Shown one piece after another: positions 1,400 to 28,000 of a stretch of 64,000 bases of DNA. Position numbers and translations under genes: made by a program. Origin of the DNA: Owenia fusiformis (lineage: Eukaryota; Annelida; Polychaeta; Sabellida; Oweniidae); NCBI GenBank assembly GCA_903813345.2, contig CAIIXF020000003.1, positions 22,893,248 through 22,957,247 of the forward strand. Reading direction: 5' to 3'. The notes below the pieces were generated by a model. That model saw only the letters and a list, made by a program, of their open reading frames with translations. It ran no database searches and had not been told where the DNA came from. Each line of letters opens with the position of its first letter. Positions within the stretch are counted from its first letter, which is position 1.

Positions 1400-4300
1400 C
1401 TCTTGTGACTCTTGGGAATGTTTAACAGTTAGAACATCAGGTCTCCAGACACTCTCAATAACACCAAATAGACCTAGACATCTGGAATGAGGAAACAAAG
1501 GGATTAACTTAATAATGATAGAAATATCAGAAAGGGCAACATATAACAAGGGCAATACTAGAAACAGACGATACCTAGAATTAACATAACAAAATGTCCA
1601 CATCTGGTTTCACACAGTACACTGTAATCTATAATATTTTCACAGAGAAAGTCTAGTTGAATATTAGTTCTTAAAGTGCCCGATAAACTATAAAATGCGC
1701 ATGCGTACAGGTGTTGATAAACTATAAATAGCGAAAATCCAGGGTTTGTCACCACAAGGTAAGCCAGGACGTGTTGAGAGAACAGCTAGTGTTGATATTG
1801 AATTTACATGTAGCCAGATAAGTTTCCTTATTGAAATTACGTATGGTTATCAGCAATACTTTGTAGGTGCTAAATAATAAAATATTTAGAGTATATATGA
1901 GAGAAATTGGTCATTTCGAACCTGTTGAAAAGTTTGTGGCTCTCGGCTACACCGGGGAATTTACTTCCATGAGTACACACATAAATGTGGGGTTCCCCAA
2001 GAGGTACGCGACAAGGTGACCTGGCATCAAATGTGCGACTAAATGCTACTATCGAGAAGATAAAATAACGAATAGGACAATAAGTTATTGCATGTGACAA
2101 TTCCAAGCCTTCATCTCACTGAAGTATTTTGAAGTAAAAATAGGATTTTTGTTTTGATACATGGATTATGATGAACGTAACTTTATTCTGACAACTAATC
2201 AAAACTGAACAAAATTGATTGTATGTAACAGACAATTTATTGTTTTACAATGTTTTGATTGGCTAAACGAATGAAACCAAGAAATTATGACATGTAAAAT
2301 GACAATTTTGAAATGTAAAATTTAAAAGTGACAAACACAACCTCCCTATCCACTCTTTGGGAGCCCTAGTAAATTAGTAATATGTACATGCAGCAGTGGT
2401 AGTGTACAGCTTATTATCACACTACGCTTTGTATTCTAAAGCCTGTTGTTTGTAATAACACTGTTCACTCAACGTATGTTTTGTGTGTGGGCAGTCAACG
2501 ATAATCATTGTTTTATCCCGGTTATATGACCTCGGCAATTATAACAGAACCGTACTAAACGAAAAAAACGCAAATAAGAAAAAGCTTTCACACACATATA
2601 AAAAATGAACTAGTCTAATCCGCCAGTATAAACTCTGTGCTATACGTAGCCGGGTCAGGCGCACACTTTAAGTTATTGCAAATCAGACAAGGCATTAACA
2701 TGCAAAAAGTTGAACACCTGCGGCCTGCCATTTGCTACAGACACTGCACGTTGACAACCGAACGCTAAACACAATCCACAAAAAAACTTGGAGGCTATAA
2801 CAACATGTCACCACTTGTGGTGGTGACATAAAAAAATTTCTTGCAGACTGACAGATGCCCCATGAAAATACATTGCTGCTAAAGGTACGAATCCCATGTG
2901 AGATTGAATAAAATTGACAGGTAAAACATAATTCTGTTTCAAGTGATTTTCTTTTGCTCACCTGTCCTTGTATGTTCTCTGTGTGACTTTCAGTGATGTA
3001 AAAATACATTCTTTAGCAACTGCCTCTTCTATGAAGTCTCTTTGTTGCTTGCTCTCAGCCCAGCCATGTGGAACTTCTAGTACACAGAATGAACCATAGA
3101 TGTCCTCAATTAACAAAGAGAATCTGAAATGAAAGAACCAGCCATGTGGAACTTCTAGTGCACAGAATGAACCATAGATGTCCTCAATTAACAAAGAGAA
3201 TCTGAAATGAAAGAACCAGCCATGTGGAACTTCTAGTACACAGAATGAACCATAGATGTCCTCAATTAACAATGAGAATCTGAAATGAAAGAACCAGCCA
3301 TGTGGAACTTCTAGTACACAGGATGAACCATAGATGTCCTCAATTAACAATGAGAATCTGAAATGAAAAAACCAGCCATGTGGAACTTCTAGTACACAGA
3401 ATGAACCATATATGTCCTCAATTAACAATGAGAATCTGAAATGAAAGAACCAGCCATGTGGAACTTCTAGTACACAGAATGAACCATAGATGTCCTCAAT
3501 TAACAAAGAGAATCTGAAATGAAAGAACCAGCCATGTGGAACTTCTAGTACACAGAATGAACCATAGATGTCCTCAATTAACAAAGAGAATCTGAAATGA
3601 AAGAATCAGCCATGTGGAACTTCTAGTGCACAGAATGAACCATAGATGTCCTCAATCAACAAAGAGAATCTGAAATGAAAGAACACAATGGCAATATTTC
3701 AAAACTAGTTACAGCGTTTGCAGCCATCTATTACATCCAAACTAGAAACAATACCACAACATGACATAATGTGTCCATGTCTTAAGTTAGTGTAAATGGT
3801 TAGAAAAATGTAACAATGCTTTATAGTTGTCAAAGGCAAACACAAGTCACAGAAAAGGGGGACAATAAAAACTGAGCAAATACTCAGTAAATGGAGTTAC
3901 TAATGTTGTCAAACAAAGGTACATCTACTTGTGGTCACATACAAAGTCTGATTTATTCTGCTCACATGTAAGATAATTGCTTACCTGATATCATTCTGGT
4001 CAGTTGGATTGATACTGGTCTTCTTCATGGTCTGTTCTGTTCTGAAATCATACACAAAACATATAACATGTACATGTACACAGAGGTTTCATTAGCAGCA
4101 TGCCATAGACAATTTTCTCTTAAAGTTATTGCCTGTTATTTCGCGAGGTCATAAAACTACTGTTAACAGTGACATGGGTTTCTACTTATAAATGTCACAC
4201 CTTTCTGTCTTTGAATCTTTCCAACAAAACAACCTCTGTAAAGTGGCACGAAATGATACTGTGGCCCCATCCCCTTGTTTCTCAATGCTCTCCAGTATGG

Positions 4301-7300
4301 ATCTGGGCATTTCTGGCGTATCAAGTTGAGAGGGTTGTGATTTTACTAGCTGTAACCTGGGTGGATTGGTTGGACTGTTAAAACACTGGATGCTCTAAAA
4401 TGAAAAACATAATAGGACTTCACTGTTATCATATTTGATGCAGAACTCAAAAGATATAAATCATGAAATGTAAGATTGAACTGTAAACACTTAACATTGA
4501 GCCTTTTTACAATAAATCTTTTTCATAGTCTCATTAAGTTGATTAATGGCTGAGCTTCAACCCAACTACATGTTTATACATTCATTGTTCAATAAAAAAG
4601 GCAATTCATGACAAAGAAAATCCTAAGCTTTTAATATGCTAAAATAGCACTTAATGTGAAAGATGCTAAACACCTTTGGAAAGACTGTTTTAAAATCAAA
4701 AATAAATGGAATTAAAAATGAAAAAATTAAAAACAAATATTTTGCCAACCTTGGGGCCAGGTGCCCATGTTCCTACACAAGGGTTCATATTGGCAACACA
4801 ATCTTTGTAACAGACATCAGGATCTGAAATAACACGCTCAATTATGAAGTGCATGTATCACAATCAAAATTAAACGAGCATTTTTTGGTAAAATTATTGT
4901 GCAAAGACTCTTGAACAAGAAGTTCTTCTAAAAAATTTGAAAATCTTATGATAGACATTTTTTGTGAGGATGGGAAACGACTGAAAATATGCAAACATTT
5001 TATTGTACTGTATTTGTGCCTATTGTGGCTCCCATAAAGTTGCAACTGCACAATTTTAGATTTAAGTAAAAGTCAAAAATCAGAATAACATTAGCCCCAA
5101 AAATACTCATACAAAGGAGAATGTAATTATGTCGCGAAAACTGTAATAACCTAATGAGCAAGGGCACTGCCATGATGCTATTGGTACAAGACAATTGCTG
5201 GGCTTGGGTTTAGCTGTGACATCATCAGGTTGCTTCATGACATCATCAGGTTGCTTCATGACATCATCAGGTTGCTTCATGACATCATCAGGTTGCTGGA
5301 TGACCTGAGTGAACTGAGTGCATAAAATCACTGGCTTTTTACTACTAGGGAGATCCAATCTTTGCCTGAAATATTATTCAAATATGATAAATGATGATGT
5401 CACAATTGAACTATATGATGGAGTATGAATGATTACAAATTGAGTAAAAGGCCACCAAAATGGCTTCAAAATTGCGTTTTTTCTTGTTTGTTTACATTAT
5501 TAATAGAAGACCGACCTTGATTTTAAGATTCATCGCAATCATATGACCTCCTTGAACACAAAACTAGACAATGGTGGAATCAGCAAATATCAGGTTTTTT
5601 AATTTCTGTTATTTGATATATTTTTGTTGTTTTGTAACAAAGTGGAAGATATATAAAGTTGCTATTATTCAGTTATTATTTACCATGGTGGATCTATCTT
5701 GATGACACAGCCTTGCTTTACAGCTTGATCCTCTTTCAACAAGACTATGTACTCCTCTGTGGGGATATCGAAACCCTCAGAAGTATTTCCTCTTTCACTT
5801 GTTTCTTTGGTGGACATTACAATGTCTTCTTTGGGGATCTCAAAACACTCTGATGCATTTCCACATTCATTTGGCTCTATAGTGGGCATCACAATATCGA
5901 GTTTGGAATTATTTTCAACAACATTTTGAGTTGATTTTGGATCACTGCTTGTACGATTTCCATTATTTAGTTCTCCTTGGATACATCTTTTTCCTGGCAT
6001 CTGATCAGATATATTGACGCAAGTTGCGATTTGTAAATGTGAGTCAGATTTCTCAATGCTTTTAACCTTTAGCATCATAGCATTCTTCTTTTCTGAAAAT
6101 TATTTTAATGTCATTTTTAATAGATTATTAGGTTTTTATTGCATAATAATGTTTATCAAAAATAAATTAAACATAGTTTATAAGGAGGGACTAATCTCAA
6201 AGAACATTATTGTCGGCATCAGCTATAGTCACATGACGATTATAATTTGGCATTAAAAAATAAAAATAAAAACTGAGGTAATTGCAGTACATTAATGAGA
6301 GAAATATTGTGATCCTGTTTAGTTTAAAATTGCTGACTCTATTCTTTTACACTGTACATGGTGTTTTGAACTCTATATATGCTGTCTCAATTTTGCTCAT
6401 TCATTTAAAAAAATTACCAGTTTTTTTATGGCTCCAAAATGTATGTGCTGTTTTCTCTCTCTGCTGTAACCTAAGTAACTGCTCAGCTAGACCATCCCTA
6501 CAATATAGACATGTTACACAAAGCAATTGTGGCACTAATTCAGACTGAGGAAAATAAATAAGCAAAAATAGATATGTAAACAGTATCATCTCATAAGGGG
6601 TTCGACAAAAGTATTATTTTTATATCCTGGAACAGAAATATCTTCTTCAGAGATATCAGATTTTCCCTGTGATATAAGCTTATTATTATCTGAAACCTCC
6701 AATAATGCTGTCACATAAAATTAAATGTACAACAATACCTGATGTACTTTTGTTTCTTCTTTTTACCCGAATCTACTGGAGTCTTAGCACATGTCTCGGT
6801 GTTTTGCGACTTTTCAGGTGTTTTATGCCATGTGACTTTCTTTAGCCAATCAGATCCCTTCAGTTTGTCAGTTGATACGGGCTCTTGTGGAGACTGCGTC
6901 GCCGTGGATATATTTATAGAGGAATCTAATTCTTCTGAGCCCTGAATTTTGTAATAACATTTACATTTACAAGAGTTGCACATGAATTTTAACAATGCAT
7001 AAGATTAACATGCAAAATGTCACCACCTGCTATTTGTTACCGATGCCAACCACCGAACAATGTTACAGAACCAAACACCAACCACCAACTTCTGTCCAAA
7101 AAAAGTTGGAGACTATTACAATATGACAAAGTAAACCAAAACCATGATCTGAGTGCAGAGTAAGATCAAGAATATAAATCTATTTCCTTCCCCACACTAA
7201 ATAAAACATGAATTTTAAACTGTCCAATAACATTCTCACAATGAGTTAGCAGAGAGTTAAGCCACCAATAAAATCAGAAGTCATTATATTTGTTTTGTTT

Positions 7301-9294: not shown

Positions 9295-10059
9295 CACTGT
9301 TTTCTTTAGCTACGAAGTGATATAACCAGAGACATCATATCGTTACTATTGACTCCGTAGAAATACAGCCAACCGTATCGCATGAAAATTAGTCATGTGA
9401 TACGGATTAGATCTATATGTTGTCCAAATTGACCAATCAAAAATTGTTAGAAACTCCTAACCATGTGATAAGACATACTGAGATTAGTAGGACGCCTATT
9501 GATATAGGCCTATTGCAGAAGGAAATTTACAAACCCTCCTCTTTCTTGATTCACGACTCCAATTATTCCAGGACATTGTTTATGTACAAAAAAACGTCTC
9601 CTATCAGAGCTGAGATAAAGCCACGTTGTTTATGTACAAACACTTCTCCTATCAGGGCTGAGATAAAGCCATAAATTTGAAATAGAGAAATTAAATCGAA
9701 AAAGTCGAAAATCGAAACTTCCGCCAACTTCACCTCCTTCTTTGAAGAGTCTAATTTTTTTTATTTCGCCCTTTATTTCTTAATTCAGGGTCAAAATATC
9801 ATATATAAATATATAGCATTGCAAAATTTTATACAAAGAATTGTTATATGTATGGTTCTGCCAGAAAATATGCTTTTGACCAACTCTCGAAATCACGGCG
9901 TGGCCACCTGTCGGCCATGCTGAGAATTACCGGCGAAACTGCCAAAATAATATTTTCAACGATTTGAGATATTTAGCCTAATATTATTGGATCTATACAT
10001 CAAAATCGTTTATTGGAGACGTGGAAACATACATTACTAGTTTATCCAGTTTTCAAGTA

Positions 10060-13000: not shown

Positions 13001-16000
13001 TCATTTCACTACCTGTTAAGTATTAATCAATAGTATCGAAGAAATTGTTCAATTTTATTTATTTAATATGATTAAAATATACATTTAATTGAGCCTGTAA
13101 ATCCTTAAAAATCAGGTTTGTTTCTAAATGTTGCGAACGCATCACATACTGTATATGTCTTAGATTGGTGCCTGCAATATTTCGTGCTCTTTAGAGCATA
13201 GGATTTTCGCCAATTAAATATTTATCTAGCTAATAAAGCTTGTTTGGTGAATTAATCTTGCCACTACTACACTAATGTTCTGAGTATTCCTAGTGTATAT
13301 GTACCTCACCTACATCGTCTGCAAAAGTACAAGAACACCAAGATGTTTCATTTCATTCTGGATCACCACAATCGTATTGGCCGAGAAAAAAATAGTATTT
13401 CGAGAGAGGTTTAACCCACTCGATTCACTAAATGACATCGAGATGCTCCAGAGATACAGAATGCCGAGAGCATTGTTAAATGAGGCATGGGCTTTCAACT
13501 AGAATAATCTAATTGAAAGCCCATGATAGAGGTTATAAACCTTTTTGAAGACGAGCTGACACCAAAGAATAGGAACAATCATTTCATCCCGGGGTTTCTA
13601 AAAATGTTGATCACTATCAGATTCCTGGCAACTGGACAACTCCAAATGTCAACAGGAGATACGTTTGGCATTAGCCAATCATCCGTTTCCAATATAATTA
13701 CAGAAGTTGTTACTATTATGGCAAGGTAAGTTAAGAATATGTAGTTTTCTTTTTACTATGTTTTTTAAAGATTCTGACAATTCGAAACGCATAATATCGA
13801 GTGCATATCTCAAAGACATCGTGTCTTTGCCATTTAAACCAATTTCTCGGTAGATTTTCTCTATAATTGTTTGCTTTCAACACAAAACACGATTTTGTTT
13901 AATCAATGATACATTGACAACAATGTGCTAGAGCAAAGTAGTTTGGCACTTCATGAAATACATAATTGTCCCATTATTGTTGCAATGGTGCATATTCTGG
14001 TAAGTTTTCATAAACAACACTATCTATATTTATTATTGGTATATCAAACTATAAAATAGCTCAGATACACCCTCAGGATACACCCCTTGTATACCAAGGG
14101 TGTGATAATACTTATAAACACTCATAGAATTTAAAGAGTCTTACACAGTTAAAGAGTCTTACACCAACGTGGTGCATATTGAATTTCTTGATCTGTTGAT
14201 GGTATACAATAAAGTCTTTATATTTCAAAATGCGTATGCTATAATTGCCAGAATTTTATACATAAGAAATAGTAAAACCTGTGTACAGTGAACACCAATA
14301 TGGAGCTACAAAAATTTGTTCATTGTAGGTAAGTATTTACTACATAGAGGCGATCTTACAGAAGTCAATGGAGTATGTGCTGAGAAGGGGTGTTCACTAG
14401 AAACAGGTGTCCACTTGAGAGAGTTGTTCTCTAAGACAGGTTTCACTGACTGTAGTTTGATTGTGTTTCATACAAAATAATATGGGATAAAAGCTTACTT
14501 TAATTAATTATCAAGAGATGGCCGGAATTTTGAAAATTAAGGCCCATTTTCTTTTAAAATAAGGTCCTTCAATGCCTATAAATGCCCAAAAAGGCCGACT
14601 TATTATGGCCCTACAACGTTTATAGGCAAGAAGGCATGCCCACATTTTTTAGGAGATATCACCCTCCCCCTCGGCTATAGGCCTGTACCAGCACGTTTCG
14701 TTTTGTTTCGTCCAGTGTTAAATTAATGAATTCTTGCATTTTATGAATTATCATGAACTAAGCATCCCCGGTCGGAGTTGTATATTGGGTTTATCATTTG
14801 GGATAATATAGTATCCCATGATACTACTACTTCCTGGTGAATAACACTCAGGAATATTTTAAATTTCGCGCCAAAATACACTCTAGACTTGCGATCGCAA
14901 CTTACGTTTTAATTGTTTTGCGATTGCTTTGCGTCTGCGATTGTGCTCAATTGATAATATCACGCATCGCATGCGTTACGAATTGCGATCGCAATCGCAT
15001 CGCAGACGCAACGCAACTATTTGCGACCAGATGATAATGAGGCCTCAGCTCTGTATATGAAAATTCTATGGATAATCAGTGATCTCCTCAGTTATATATG
15101 CTATATAGATTTATATTTTTTATGGAAATAAATCATTGGTAAAGAAAAATCTCAGCTTAGCACCCCATCAAAATGATAACATGATTGAGATATTTTGACC
15201 AAAACTGCTAAAATAAGGCAGAATTGAAATAAAACATATTCTCAAAGATATTATATAATTTAACATGTTATATTTATAGCTCTGATTCAGACATGAACAA
15301 TTCAGTGACCAATGCTAGTGGGCAAGCCATAATGAATCTGTTAAGGAACAGCATGAATGGAACTGGCAGCCAGCAGCAAATGTTTGTATTTTTTTCAACA
15401 TTAATATATTTTTGTCTTAACTAGTTGTTGTCTTAACTAGCTGGACTAAACAGGAATGCTCTTCTCCAAAGATTAAAGGTTCACCTTATACTAAGAGTGA
15501 GAGAAACCTTGTAGAATTTGAAATAAATATTGTGTTACCACCAACTCTGAAGAACTAAATTAAATTAAATATCTGACTACACCTAAAAAAATATCAAGAA
15601 AATCTGATCATTGCTTCTGATTTGTTTGCAGTATTCTCCAAGGAGATGACAGCTGTAATAGCTTCAGTGTTTACAGTAGTGATGTCACAATAGTTGCAAG
15701 CACTGCCAGTAGTGGCCTCCATACGCCTGGCAGCAATAAGGTCAGTCTGCACATGTAACACTTTATCTCTTTAGGGGACTCAATATTTAGAAGCAAATCT
15801 CAAGTTACTCCATTGTTATAGCCTATATGCTTCTTACTCCAAGGATTTGATCAAAACCTCCAATGAATTAATGTACCAAAGTCTGTTCAAGTATTTTGAT
15901 TTTAAAGTTAAGTTCCACTATTGAACCCATTTACAATATGTCCCTGTCTCTTGTTTTTTGTTTAAGAAACTCCCCACCCCCTTTAAGTATGCTATTCATT

Positions 16001-19000: not shown

Positions 19001-22000
19001 TGGTGCTTTCTGATATTAAACGCAGCGTAAGTAGCCACAATACATTGGCAATTTGGTGTTAGGAATATCAATTTGCAATTAATATACTACTTGTATGGTA
19101 CATTTTACTGAAATAATTGATGTTTACAGTGATGTAATATCCTATTGTACATGGTATGTTTATTTTCACGCTAGAATTGTATTATCGAAAAATACACAAT
19201 CTAATTATAATTTATCCCTCATGAACCCCCATATTTACTTCTCACCACTGGGAGGGAGAAGAAAAGGGAATTTACAAGTGACTTGAAACGCCTAGAGCCA
19301 TATTTGTTTTTTACTTTAGGTTCTGTACATTCTACACCTCCATCAAGACGCTACTGCTGGTAAAGCTCACGTCAGTTCAGTGTCAGAGTTTATCCTGGCC
19401 AATCCCTGTCTCAGTTACGCTATTCTCGATGCAAGCAGAAGGAAATTTAAACGATCTGCTGAGCATCATGAGATGGATGATGTAACAACAGGTTAGCGGC
19501 ATCTGATCAACATTTTAAATGTTTGAACTATAATGTGAAAGTAAATCCAATTTAAAGTAGATAACCTTCTTATTTCAATTACTGTTTCTATCGCATTTTT
19601 ATTATTCATTACACAACATTGATTAGTGCCTGTCATTATTTGATAATGAGATGTTGATTGGTTAATGCACATAAATACATGCCTGACATCATCTCTTAGT
19701 AATGTATCAGTGCTGCAATTAAGCTTTATTTATGCCTTGTCAACTGTGGAAGCCTCTGGACAATTATTTTCGGAAAGACAATTTGTCCAGCCAATTATTG
19801 AGGTCCTTATCTTCCAGCCTAATGTATGTCATCTTTCATTAATGCATACCACCATCAATTACTACTGTAACAGTCTTAATATTTGGTTCTAATGTTTTCC
19901 AGGTGAGATCATGAATGATGAAGATGAAGAGGAAATCTGTGACAGAATGGAAGAGGGTTCAAATATTGGTGTCTTAGTCAAAATGTACTCACTCCATTCA
20001 AAGTAAGTCATACTTGTACTCACTCCATTCAAAGTAAGTCATACTTGTACTCACTCCATTCAAAGTAAGTCATACTTGTACTCACTCCATTCAAAGTAAG
20101 TCATACTTGTACTCGCTCCATTCAAAGTAAGTCATACTTGTACTCGCTCCATTCAAAGTAAGTCATACTTGTACTCGCTCCATTCAAAGTAAGTCATACT
20201 TGTACTCACTCCATTCAAAGAAAGTCATACTTGTACTCACTCCATTCAAAGTAAGTCATACTTGTACTCACTCCATTCAAAGTAAGTCATACTTGTACTC
20301 ACTCCATTCAAAGTAAGTCATACTTGTACTCGCTCCATTCAAAGTAAATCATACTTGTACTCACTCCATTCAAAGTAAGTCATACTTGTACTCGCTCCAT
20401 TCAAAGTAAGTCATACTTGTACCCACTCCATTCAAAGTAAGTCATACTTGTACTCGCTCCATTCAAAGTAAGTCATACTTGTACTCGCTCCATTCAAAGT
20501 AAGTCATACTTGTACTCACTCCATTCAAAGTAAGTCATACTTGTACTCACTCCATTCAAAGTAAGTCATACTTGTACTCACTCCATTCAAAGTAAGTCAT
20601 ACTTGTACTCGCTCCATTCAAAGTAAGTCATACTTGTACTCGCTCCATTCAAAGTAAGTCATACTTGTACTCACTCCATTCAAAGTAAGTCTTGTAACAA
20701 AGTATTTATTCATTGCAATGTATCGGGTGAACTGTCCAAGGGGTAAAATGTCTAGAAACCCCTTTCCATTCAGTTGATTGTCAAACATACCAATGCAACA
20801 TTCAACCTACATTCTAAATTCATGCTATGGAAAGACAGTTCTCATACATTGTAGTATTAATACCTCATCCAGAGATCAGATTACAAGACTACAATCATGC
20901 ATTTGCTTTTAGGGCGCTGCAGGAACTACAGATACGATTTAAGCCAGAATCTTCTGTGACTTTCCCCAATACAGCTTGCTCTGTAAGCTCAGTCTCCCAG
21001 GATGAAATAGGTATTTATTAATAGGTTTCCAATTTTCAAAATCCAGTGGTATAAAGAAAATTTATCAATTTATTTTTTAAACAAATTTAATTTATAAATT
21101 AATTTTTAAGCAAAATTAATTGGTATACTTTTTTAGGAAGCTTAATTTTTTTAGAAGACATTTGTTATATCTCTGAAAAATTATGTAAATAGTTTCATTT
21201 GAGGTTTGAAAAAATATGTCTTAAAAATATGCCTTTTTGGTCTTAAAATGTGTTAAATTAATATTTTTGTAGGTCTGAAAGATGGCCTGTCTGATATGAG
21301 TATGATATCAAGCTCAGAAAATGAAGGTTTCCAGACAGATAAGTCGACCAAAGATGTGCCTCACCCTGTACTCCTTACCCCTGATGCCTTTACATCTAGC
21401 CCTGTGTCTAGGTAGTGTTTCCTAACCTTTTTAGGTCTTTAGTGAATGAATCAAAACATATTTAGCCCCTTAAAGGTCACTGAATGTTAATGGAAGGTTA
21501 AATCGCATATGCGATTGTAGATATGAATTTAATGAAGTTGTAGAATGGAATTTAACCTTTTGACCTCAAATATGTGGAAGGTCAAATCTCACATCTGGTT
21601 ATGTGAATATAATCCTTTTTTAAATTTAATTTTAGGATTTTAATTTAACCTTTTGACCTTCAATATATGTGGATTTATGATTTTTACATTGATTTCTACT
21701 CAATAAGTATGTGGTCTGAGTCTGAAAGTTATAGATACTATCAATGTGTAACTAAAGTGAAATACAAATGTGAAGTGTGAAATATTTTATCTAAAACCCT
21801 ATTAATGTGTAATAAGGCTGTTTATTATTATGTTTTTAGGATAGCGACAGATACTAGTGCATCTGATGGTAGTATTCTCCAAAGCAGTACAAGTAGCAGC
21901 TTTACACATGTAACAGCCATGTTGGAAGACCAGGTGACCACCCCTCAACTTACAGGCTCACCCAGTAGCTCAATCACACTTACTCCCTCCTCAACAGCCA

Positions 22001-25000: not shown

Positions 25001-28000
25001 GAGTGAAATTTTAGTGTCCCATAATGTCACCTTGACATTTTTATGACGAGTGTCACTTAAACTGTAAATGTTTTCCTAGTGACCCGTTCAACAATGAAGA
25101 AAGTATGTTACTGTCATCCAGTATGAGTAGTCCAGACAAGCCCAGTAAACCCCAGTCTGTTCAAGACACTAGGTACTATTATATACACATTTATTTTGCA
25201 CCAGTTTCAATAACATTGCAGTTTACATTATTCAGGTGATAAGATGGTGTAATATATCTGGAATTGCATGCTAGATTCTGTTTCAATCGATATAGTTTTA
25301 AGTTCAAATTAGCACTTGTTTCATAATCAGAAGCTTTATCAGTTTTGCAGTCATTTCATAATCTGAAATTATTCATTTTTGCCCATGTTGTATAATCTGA
25401 AATTCAGTTTTGCACTTGATTCACAATCTGAAAATTGTTCAGTTTTGCACTTGTTTCAGAATCTGAAAATTGTTCAGTTTTGCACTTGTTTCAGAATCTG
25501 AAAATTGTTCAGTTTTGCACTTGTTTCAGAATCTGAAAATTGTTCAGTTTTGCAATTGTTTCAGAATCTGAAAATTGTTCAGTTTTGCACTTGTTTCAGA
25601 ATCTGAAAAATTGTTCAGTTTTGCACTTATTTCAGAATCTGAAAATTGTTCAGTTTTGCACTTGTTTCAGAATCTGAAAATTATTCAGTTTTGCACTTGT
25701 TTCAGAATCTGAAAATTGTTCAGTTTTGCACTTGTTTTGTTAGGTTTTGCAATTTTTTTATAATCTGAAAATAATCTAATTTTGCGCATTGGACTTGTTT
25801 TGCACTTCATAATCTGAAAATTATTTCACTTGATTCTTAATCTGAAAATTGTCCAGTTTTGAACATGTAACATATTCTGAAAATTTGATAAATACAGTCA
25901 TGCTAATAATACTTTTATTTTTAATAAATGATTTTATTTAATTTAGGCAAAATCATTGTGTAAATCAATTTGTTCAGTAACAATTTCATCATTCCCAATC
26001 TAACTGTTGAGCAATCTTTTTTCAGTCGAGACCCGCTGCCAGTTATATACAATGTCCCTATGAAAGAGGTAAGTGATTAACAACATTGATTTCACTTATG
26101 TCTTCCATATATGAATTAAATGTTGCTATGCATATGACATGCTCCTGACTTATATATGTATAAAGACCTATAGGAGAGCGTTGAGTTACTTGATTTCAAA
26201 AACTTACACAATGGAGTTTGTTTTACCCATTTTAAAATCTGTTTTTGATATTGTTATCAATATTATTTATTTATCATTCTACATTGTTGTTGAGATAAAT
26301 CGAATTAATCTTTTAATGAAATCTCAAGTATGACGACTCACTCTCTAGATTTTTAATCTAAGGTCAACGATACAATGCAGCAGATGTCAGCACTGTTACG
26401 AGAACATCAGAATGAAGTCCAGCAGTTGCGCTATGAGGTCCAAGAACAAAGAACTCAGCTGAACAGACTTGAACACACTGTTGGACGCAGAGTTGAGGGG
26501 GCTCTTACTCAACACTCACAGAGTGAGCGTATCCTTTGACTACTGAGGCCAAGTTTTGTATTAAAGATATTCTCTTGAGGAATTTTCATTCCCCACATCA
26601 ATACAATATCTTCACTGGCTATAATATTCATTAGCCTACCTTTTCTTCATCTTTATCTTTATGTGAAAAAATAAGTCATTTTTTTATTGTTCGAATCAAT
26701 CTTTGAATTTTTAAAATAAGGCGATTCTTGTTGTCCAATAATGTCAAATTCAGATATTCTTTATTTCCAAAATATAATTTCATTGTTTTAACCTTGCTTA
26801 GTGAAGGTTAATATACTAAAGTGAAATAACTCATAAAAAGATAACTTTTATTTCTGGTATTTTCTTTGCCTTAGCATCCTGGAATTTGAATGAAAGTTAT
26901 GACTTGAAAAATTGGTCCGAAAATCCTGAAAAAGGAATAAAAAAAATCTTTACTTCTATAATGGAATGCATTATAGGTAATTTCTTGACCAATCAAATCC
27001 ATAATTTCAAACAAAATCCTTGACCAATAACAGAGGAGAAACTTCATGGTCTCCTGGGGGAGAAACATCAAAAAGAACAGATTCAGCAGGAGCAGCTACT
27101 GGCTAATATGACGCAATCTCTACAGTCGACACTATCCAATAAAATAGACAGAATCGTCAAACAGGAAATAAAAAACAATGTGATACCAAGTATGTCATCT
27201 TTTATAGAATAGCAATATATGATAACAAAATGATTGCTTCATTTGATTTATTAGTTTTATGGTGAGTGATTGTCCGTGGCCCAATACAGTAACTACTACT
27301 GTACCAGTTCTTGTATTTTATGATCTGAAAATTAAATTGTATAGCATTATATGATGACGAAAAATCAAGAATAAAAAAAGAGATGAATTATTAGAAAGGG
27401 ATAAAATTTCTACAATCCAAATGACTATGCAATATTAATGTAGTCTCACCTCCAGATATAAATATAGATGGCGTGTGTGTAGATTGGTTCCCCTCCTTCA
27501 ATTAAAATCAATTTATCACATAAATAGAACAATGTCAACAGTTGTACATGTGGCTATTACATATTTATGACAAACATGTCTTATTTTTTCAGCCCTTGCA
27601 AAGGCATTAGATCCATTAAAAGATTCTTTACACCAGGAAATGGCCCAGAAACTTACAGCCACTGACTCACTTATGAAAGAAAATATATCCAAACTAGTAA
27701 GATCAAAAGTAAGTAAATTGTAATAATCTCATCCAACAAAGTTCAGATGATATAGAGAATGGCATCATTGTTGATCTGTTCATCTGTCTGTCCGGGCGAT
27801 AACTCAAATACCGGTTGACAGATTAGGCTCAAATTTCATAGCTGATGCCTAATGGGGATGGGACCTCTGCTCGAGAATGATTTTGATAACTGAAATACTA
27901 GTGGACAGATTCATATGCTGATGCCTGAGGGACAGCCGTACAAAAAAATGTTATCTGTGATAACTCAAAGACCAATTATCGGATTTGGTTCAAATTTTAT

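Follow-up and report, generated by a model that had tools for sequence, protein, structure and literature searches.

The SPIDR locus

The window analysed here is a stretch of 64,000 nucleotides (nt) from the annelid Owenia fusiformis (assembly GCA_903813345.2, contig CAIIXF020000003.1, positions 22,893,248 to 22,957,247 of the forward strand). Its minus strand carries the SPIDR gene, and across the 3' boundary of one SPIDR intron lies a tandem array in which the splice acceptor is repeated eight times. Exons joined by hand from the window match PF14950 (DUF4502) at 36.4 bits and PF14951 (DUF4503) at 30.2 bits, each against a gathering cut-off of 27. The second match starts inside the array exon. 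These two families in combination are what we take to mark SPIDR, so the gene name in a preliminary description of this DNA is borne out. Its upstream exon (3985-4041) and its end of the array exon (2962) also proved correct when the exons were joined. The gene looks functional because the 11 other exons that were joined in silico are open and in phase. A deposited O. fusiformis protein of 1018 aa, called P0001 here, has both Pfam families and is 100% identical over the 508 residues searched. Its residues 1-15 map to 9576-9532, and those beyond 721 are unmapped in the window. SPIDR has been described as having C-terminal OB folds with a zinc ribbon, according to the accessible text of PMC11377751.

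The features needed for the argument are as follows, in window coordinates. Acceptors are given by their first exonic base, and copies are those of a 26-residue block.

3985..4041, minus strand: upstream SPIDR exon, 57 nt; donor GTAAGC from 3984; its peptide is present in P0001
3705..3714, minus strand: ctgtaactag, candidate branch region for the ancestral intron, picked by eye; its A is about 40 nt before acceptor 1; its core gtaac is degenerate, not a strict yUnAy
3669, minus strand: acceptor 1; intron of 315 nt; leads to TGA
3606..3608, minus strand: TGA at the boundary of copies 1 and 2; the other six boundaries are TGG
3591, minus strand: acceptor 2; product with 7 copies
3513, minus strand: acceptor 3; product with 6 copies
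3435, minus strand: acceptor 4; product with 5 copies
3357, minus strand: acceptor 5; product with 4 copies
3279, minus strand: acceptor 6; product with 3 copies
3201, minus strand: acceptor 7; product with 2 copies
3123, minus strand: acceptor 8; product with 1 copy; the acceptor implied by P0001
2962..3123, minus strand: authentic SPIDR exon, 162 nt (63 nt of unit 8 and 99 unique); donor GTGAGC from 2961
1400..1481, minus strand: following SPIDR exon; donor GTAAGG from 1399

The array and its acceptors

The array (minus strand, 3061-3684) is made of eight head-to-tail units of 78 bp, 624 bp in all. The span first reported for it, 3064-3687, was shifted by 3 nt, but the eight first exonic bases reported with it (3669, 3591, 3513, 3435, 3357, 3279, 3201 and 3123) are all exact. 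An independent repeat search confirmed the 78-nt spacing. Tandem Repeats Finder gives 3060-3684, period 78, 8.0 copies, 97% matches, 0% indels and a score of 1180. Each of the eight units joins 15 nt of the 3' end of the intron to 63 nt of the 5' end of the exon. The intron part is GTTCTTTCATTTCAG, with a single base altered in units 2 and 5. After the 63 exonic nt the sequence continues as GGCTGAGAG in the last copy and as GTTCTTTC in the inner copies. It had been proposed that every unit holds a full acceptor and 63 nt of exon. The tract, the AG and the 63 nt are indeed there, but only 15 nt of intron is carried along.

The units have hardly diverged. Mismatches to the unit consensus number 2, 1, 0, 2, 3, 1, 1 and 0 in units 1 to 8, and pairs of units differ at 0 to 5 positions, with no difference between units 3 and 8 and one between units 1 and 7. 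These are few differences on which to judge whether, as in a mirage, the inner units are homogenised and the boundary units left out. An intact acceptor, TTTCATTTCAG/ATTCTC (CAG/ATTCTC), is kept in all eight units at a spacing of exactly 78 nt. By our own rule an acceptor-like site is a YAG preceded by at least 9 pyrimidines in 12 positions, and such sites occur in the window at 2.45 per kb of strand. The SPIDR array far exceeds this chance level. Nine arrays of the window were checked for repeated acceptor-like sites on one strand. The SPIDR array has 8 of them, an array of 35-bp units at 25312-25737 has 7, and the other seven arrays do not carry them repeatedly.

What each acceptor would yield was worked out by joining exon 4041-3985 in silico to each acceptor in turn and then to exon 1481-1400. 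Acceptors 2 to 8 give open products with 7, 6, 5, 4, 3, 2 and 1 copies of the 26-residue block. This agrees with the arithmetic made beforehand, in which the unit is a multiple of 3 and copies 2 to 8 are open. Acceptor 1 runs into the TGA at 3608-3606, as had also been claimed, and this stop lies 644 nt before the exon end. A stop at such a distance is a target of nonsense-mediated decay under the usual exon-junction rule. The intron and exon lengths are 315 and 708 nt with acceptor 1, and 861 and 162 nt with acceptor 8.

The deposited protein

P0001 contains the whole 707-residue product of acceptor 8 and none of the other seven products. It has a single copy of the unit peptide, from residue 641 onward, and the peptide of the inter-unit junction is absent from it. 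P0001 is backed by one sequence only. In a second SPIDR relative (P0002, 28% identity) the unit motif likewise occurs once.

The published annotation of O. fusiformis combined mapped RNA-seq reads and curated splice junctions with transcripts assembled de novo and genes predicted ab initio, using STAR, StringTie, Portcullis, Trinity, Mikado, Augustus and PASA, and it comprises 31,903 transcripts from 26,966 genes, going by the accessible part of PMC9977687. P0001 probably stems from this RNA-seq-guided annotation. It therefore supports the use of acceptor 8, but short of proof, because short reads are hard to place within an array and ab initio prediction can pass over it.

The protein searches were limited to candidates of 0.55-1.75 times the query length. 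The search that found P0001 thus covered about 389-1237 aa, and the truncated product of acceptor 1 was absent from that range. The 198-aa two-copy product had no match at E <= 10 among 255 candidates, which were only about 109-346 aa long, so this search missed P0001 as well. A search for further SPIDR relatives with P0001 residues 610-1018 returned only P0001 itself. No match was found among solved structures at E <= 1, nor in an Rfam scan of the window at the gathering threshold. AlphaFold2 gave the read-through array (213 aa, single sequence) a predicted local distance difference test (pLDDT) score of 76.9 and mostly strand. Against the PDB this model had no match at E <= 0.001 (the best was 6.4e-3). 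We give it no weight, since AlphaFold2 yields confident but unrealistic beta-solenoids on perfect repeats, as the accessible text of PMC11795689 describes. A model of P0001 with P0002 was unusable (pLDDT 28.9).

Splice signals

The acceptors resemble each other closely in their signals. From -20 to -4 the pyrimidine share is 0.71 at each of acceptors 2 to 8 and 0.76 at acceptor 1; at 11 other acceptors of the gene it ranges from 0.47 to 0.88. The nearest upstream AG lies at -37 for acceptor 1 and at -30 for acceptors 2 to 8, which have another at -33. In the 100 nt upstream of acceptor 1 the sole strict yUnAy is at -7, too close to serve, and the same holds for acceptors 3 to 8 as far as the AG at -30. 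Acceptors 2 to 8 have a TTCAT at -45, on the far side of the AGs at -33 and -30. The absence of a strict motif does not by itself rank the acceptors, because acceptor 1 has no usable strict yUnAy either. Acceptor 2 has an extra branch-point-like CTGAT at -15. The G-to-A change behind it is the one that made a TGA out of TGG between copies 1 and 2. We do not claim that the change was kept for its branch motif, as the A is near the acceptor and the event is single.

A folded RNA could in principle bring the branch point to acceptor 8. No such structure is indicated, because the array with 76 nt upstream folds at z = 0.56 and 16 of 20 shuffled sequences fold equally well or better.

A probable mirage minisatellite

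We argue that the array is probably a mirage minisatellite of which mainly the last acceptor (3123) is used. A mirage has a repeat unit that runs across an exon-intron boundary, as all eight units do here. Its unit is of minisatellite size, and 78 bp compares with the 10-160 bp reported in the accessible part of PMC3087553. The array would have begun with a duplication across the 3' boundary of the SPIDR intron that took in 15 nt of intron and 63 nt of exon. Slippage or unequal exchange may then have expanded this unit to eight copies. In this scenario the spliceosome mainly takes the acceptor at 3123, which adjoins the unique rest of the exon and lies 162 nt from the real donor. Copies 1 to 7 would thus act as intron, and the protein would retain one copy. 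Selection is not needed to explain an open unit that stays in frame. A length that is a multiple of 3 and an intron tail free of stops would produce it.

Three points weigh against this. The tract of acceptor 8 is no better than those of acceptors 2 to 7 (0.71 each), and it has the same AGs at -33 and -30. An annotation program may simply have chosen the one-copy model. Finally, in human introns the first AG past the branch point is used unless it falls within about 12-15 nt, a scanning rule taken from the accessible part of PMC1431707. With the branch point located before the array, scanning would be expected to favour acceptor 1 and so the stop product. Exon definition favours the acceptor nearest the donor, which is acceptor 8 with the donor at 2961. 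The deposited gene model sides with exon definition over scanning. If that model mirrors real splicing, exon definition may be the reason that acceptor 8 wins.

Other explanations

One can envisage a working ladder instead, in which several of acceptors 2 to 8 are used to give proteins with 1 to 7 copies of the 26-residue block, next to a nonproductive form from acceptor 1. The preliminary description read the array as one that could make such a graded set of isoforms. Tract and AG are retained in acceptors 2 to 8, all seven in-frame products are open, and the sole nonsense change, located at the first boundary, is harmful to acceptor 1 only. The distinct changes among the units also lean this way at first sight. 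There are seven, 4 silent, 2 missense and 1 nonsense, although events this few bear little weight. With every substitution equally probable the silent share should be 20% (P = 0.034), but transitions alone would give 36%, so the silent excess is not convincing given transition bias. The AGs at -33 and -30 stand between the TTCAT and each of acceptors 2 to 8. Extra copies would enter where the PF14951 match starts and would be likely to disrupt it. The sole deposited protein is the acceptor-8 product with one copy, and the two-copy query found no match among its 255 candidates. In amphioxus mirages are thought not to disturb regular splicing, though the authors allow that the repeats could be cryptic splice sites (PMC3087553, accessible part). 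The graded set is thus unsupported, and we consider the ladder unlikely.

It is equally unlikely, in our judgement, that the array is a brake like a poison exon. Here acceptor 1 would often be used, its mRNA would be lost to nonsense-mediated decay, and the remainder would use acceptor 8. Acceptor 1 does have the farthest upstream AG, at -37 where the others have one at -30, and its tract is a little richer in pyrimidines (0.76, compared with 0.71). The TGA at 3608-3606 supplies the stop. Acceptor 1 is also nearest the candidate ancestral branch region, which would suit scanning for the first AG past the branch point (PMC1431707, accessible part). However, no strict yUnAy lies at the usual distance upstream of it, and the protein search over about 389-1237 aa held no truncated product.

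A bolder version makes the array a dial that varies in the germline. Its length would set the range of SPIDR forms (1 to 7 copies at the start of DUF4503) through graded in-frame use of acceptors, with acceptor 1 leading to decay. If this were true, worms differing in copy number would differ in both the dose and the form of SPIDR, but we find it a little less credible again than either of the two explanations above.

An artefact of assembly or polishing in the copy number or sequence is the least likely of all: the reference is a single haploid, de-haplotyped assembly from polished long reads (PMC9977687, accessible part) and one amphioxus mirage was seemingly misassembled in a draft genome (PMC3087553, accessible part), but a simple artefact is unlikely because the copies differ from each other by private changes and the published reads, with an N50 of 25.75-30.75 kb (PMC9977687), easily span a 624-bp array.

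Other repeats in SPIDR and the window

Counting the acceptor array, four separate tandem repeats touch the SPIDR gene. Directly after the donor GTAAGG (1399) of exon 1481-1400 starts a 54-bp x 15 minisatellite (590-1397). Its later copies have TC or AC in place of GT, so only its first edge is a donor. It was considered as another mirage and rejected, because no exon bases were seen by eye in its units and GT occurs in none of the 14 later copies shown. A 21-bp x 4.2 coding repeat of the QPDDVMK type (5217-5304) lies in frame within exon 5365-5151, and QPDDV is found four times in P0001. A 48-bp x 2 repeat (9576-9671) ends at the start-codon region. Opposite the intron that follows exon 1481-1400, a plus-strand reading frame (1-234) is open at the window start, and it has only a sub-threshold Pfam match (FUT8_N_cat, E = 0.088).

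The 35-bp array at 25312-25737 has 12.3 copies, and its plus-strand unit, GCACTTGTTTCAG, is acceptor-like. Near it there are only two reading frames of at least 60 residues, and no exon was recognised. Several minisatellites of the kind of the 31-bp x 22.8 array at 19984-20691 (97% matches) occur in the window. Plus-strand reading frames at 13284-13729 resemble what we take to be a Harbinger-type transposase; a Pfam scan of the piece 13284-13499 gave no match to one.

Significance

Eight near-identical acceptors at one intron amount to a natural competition experiment on the choice of a 3' splice site, with tract and AG nearly constant. By distance from the branch point the first acceptor should win, by exon definition the last. 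A mirage in an annelid would also give models of intron growth and gain a clean example that has diverged little. As far as SPIDR itself goes, the matter is ordinary unless use of the inner acceptors shows up in RNA.

Comparison with known systems

The prawn Rlecs genes, like SPIDR, have an array of short tandem units that alters the number of peptide repeats. Their repeats are in the second exon and their alternative acceptor is in the fifth (PMC7536079, accessible part), unlike the arrangement here. Tandem NAGNAG acceptors (PMC3250501) offer another likeness, as several AGs compete and an in-frame choice alters protein length. Their AGs are three bases apart, whereas the SPIDR acceptors are 78 nt apart, number eight and were made by a minisatellite, and this spacing takes SPIDR out of the NAGNAG class.

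In the potato RdRp gene a tandem duplication gave a new intron by recruiting a cryptic GTAAG donor, and the mRNA gained an extra exon copy (PMC4974935, accessible part). As in SPIDR, the duplication crossed the 3' boundary of an intron and the copy inherited the tract and the 3' splice site. The SPIDR consensus unit has no GTRAG by eye and P0001 has no extra copy, unlike the potato case, so we rejected intron gain of that type. The literature covered on splicing of duplicated or repeated sites, including part of PMC2809761, holds no boundary minisatellite that makes graded isoforms, a weak negative as subscription journals are mostly outside that coverage.

The closest match is with the mirage minisatellites of amphioxus, described for Adh3 and the globins BflGb6 and BflGb9. 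Many of their units have splice signals, and the transcripts hold one authentic copy. The BflGb6 unit combines an intron's 3' end with the 5' part of the next exon, and two haplotypes have 6 and 3 units (all from the accessible part of PMC3087553). The SPIDR unit is built in the same way. It differs in lying in an annelid SPIDR gene, in its eight copies of exactly 78 bp and in the intact acceptor that each of them keeps. It is a multiple of 3, open across the intron tail, with acceptors 2 to 8 in frame, a property that the accessible part of PMC3087553 does not mention for amphioxus. The mirages found in the literature are from amphioxus, so an annelid case would suggest that mirages are not confined to the cephalochordates.
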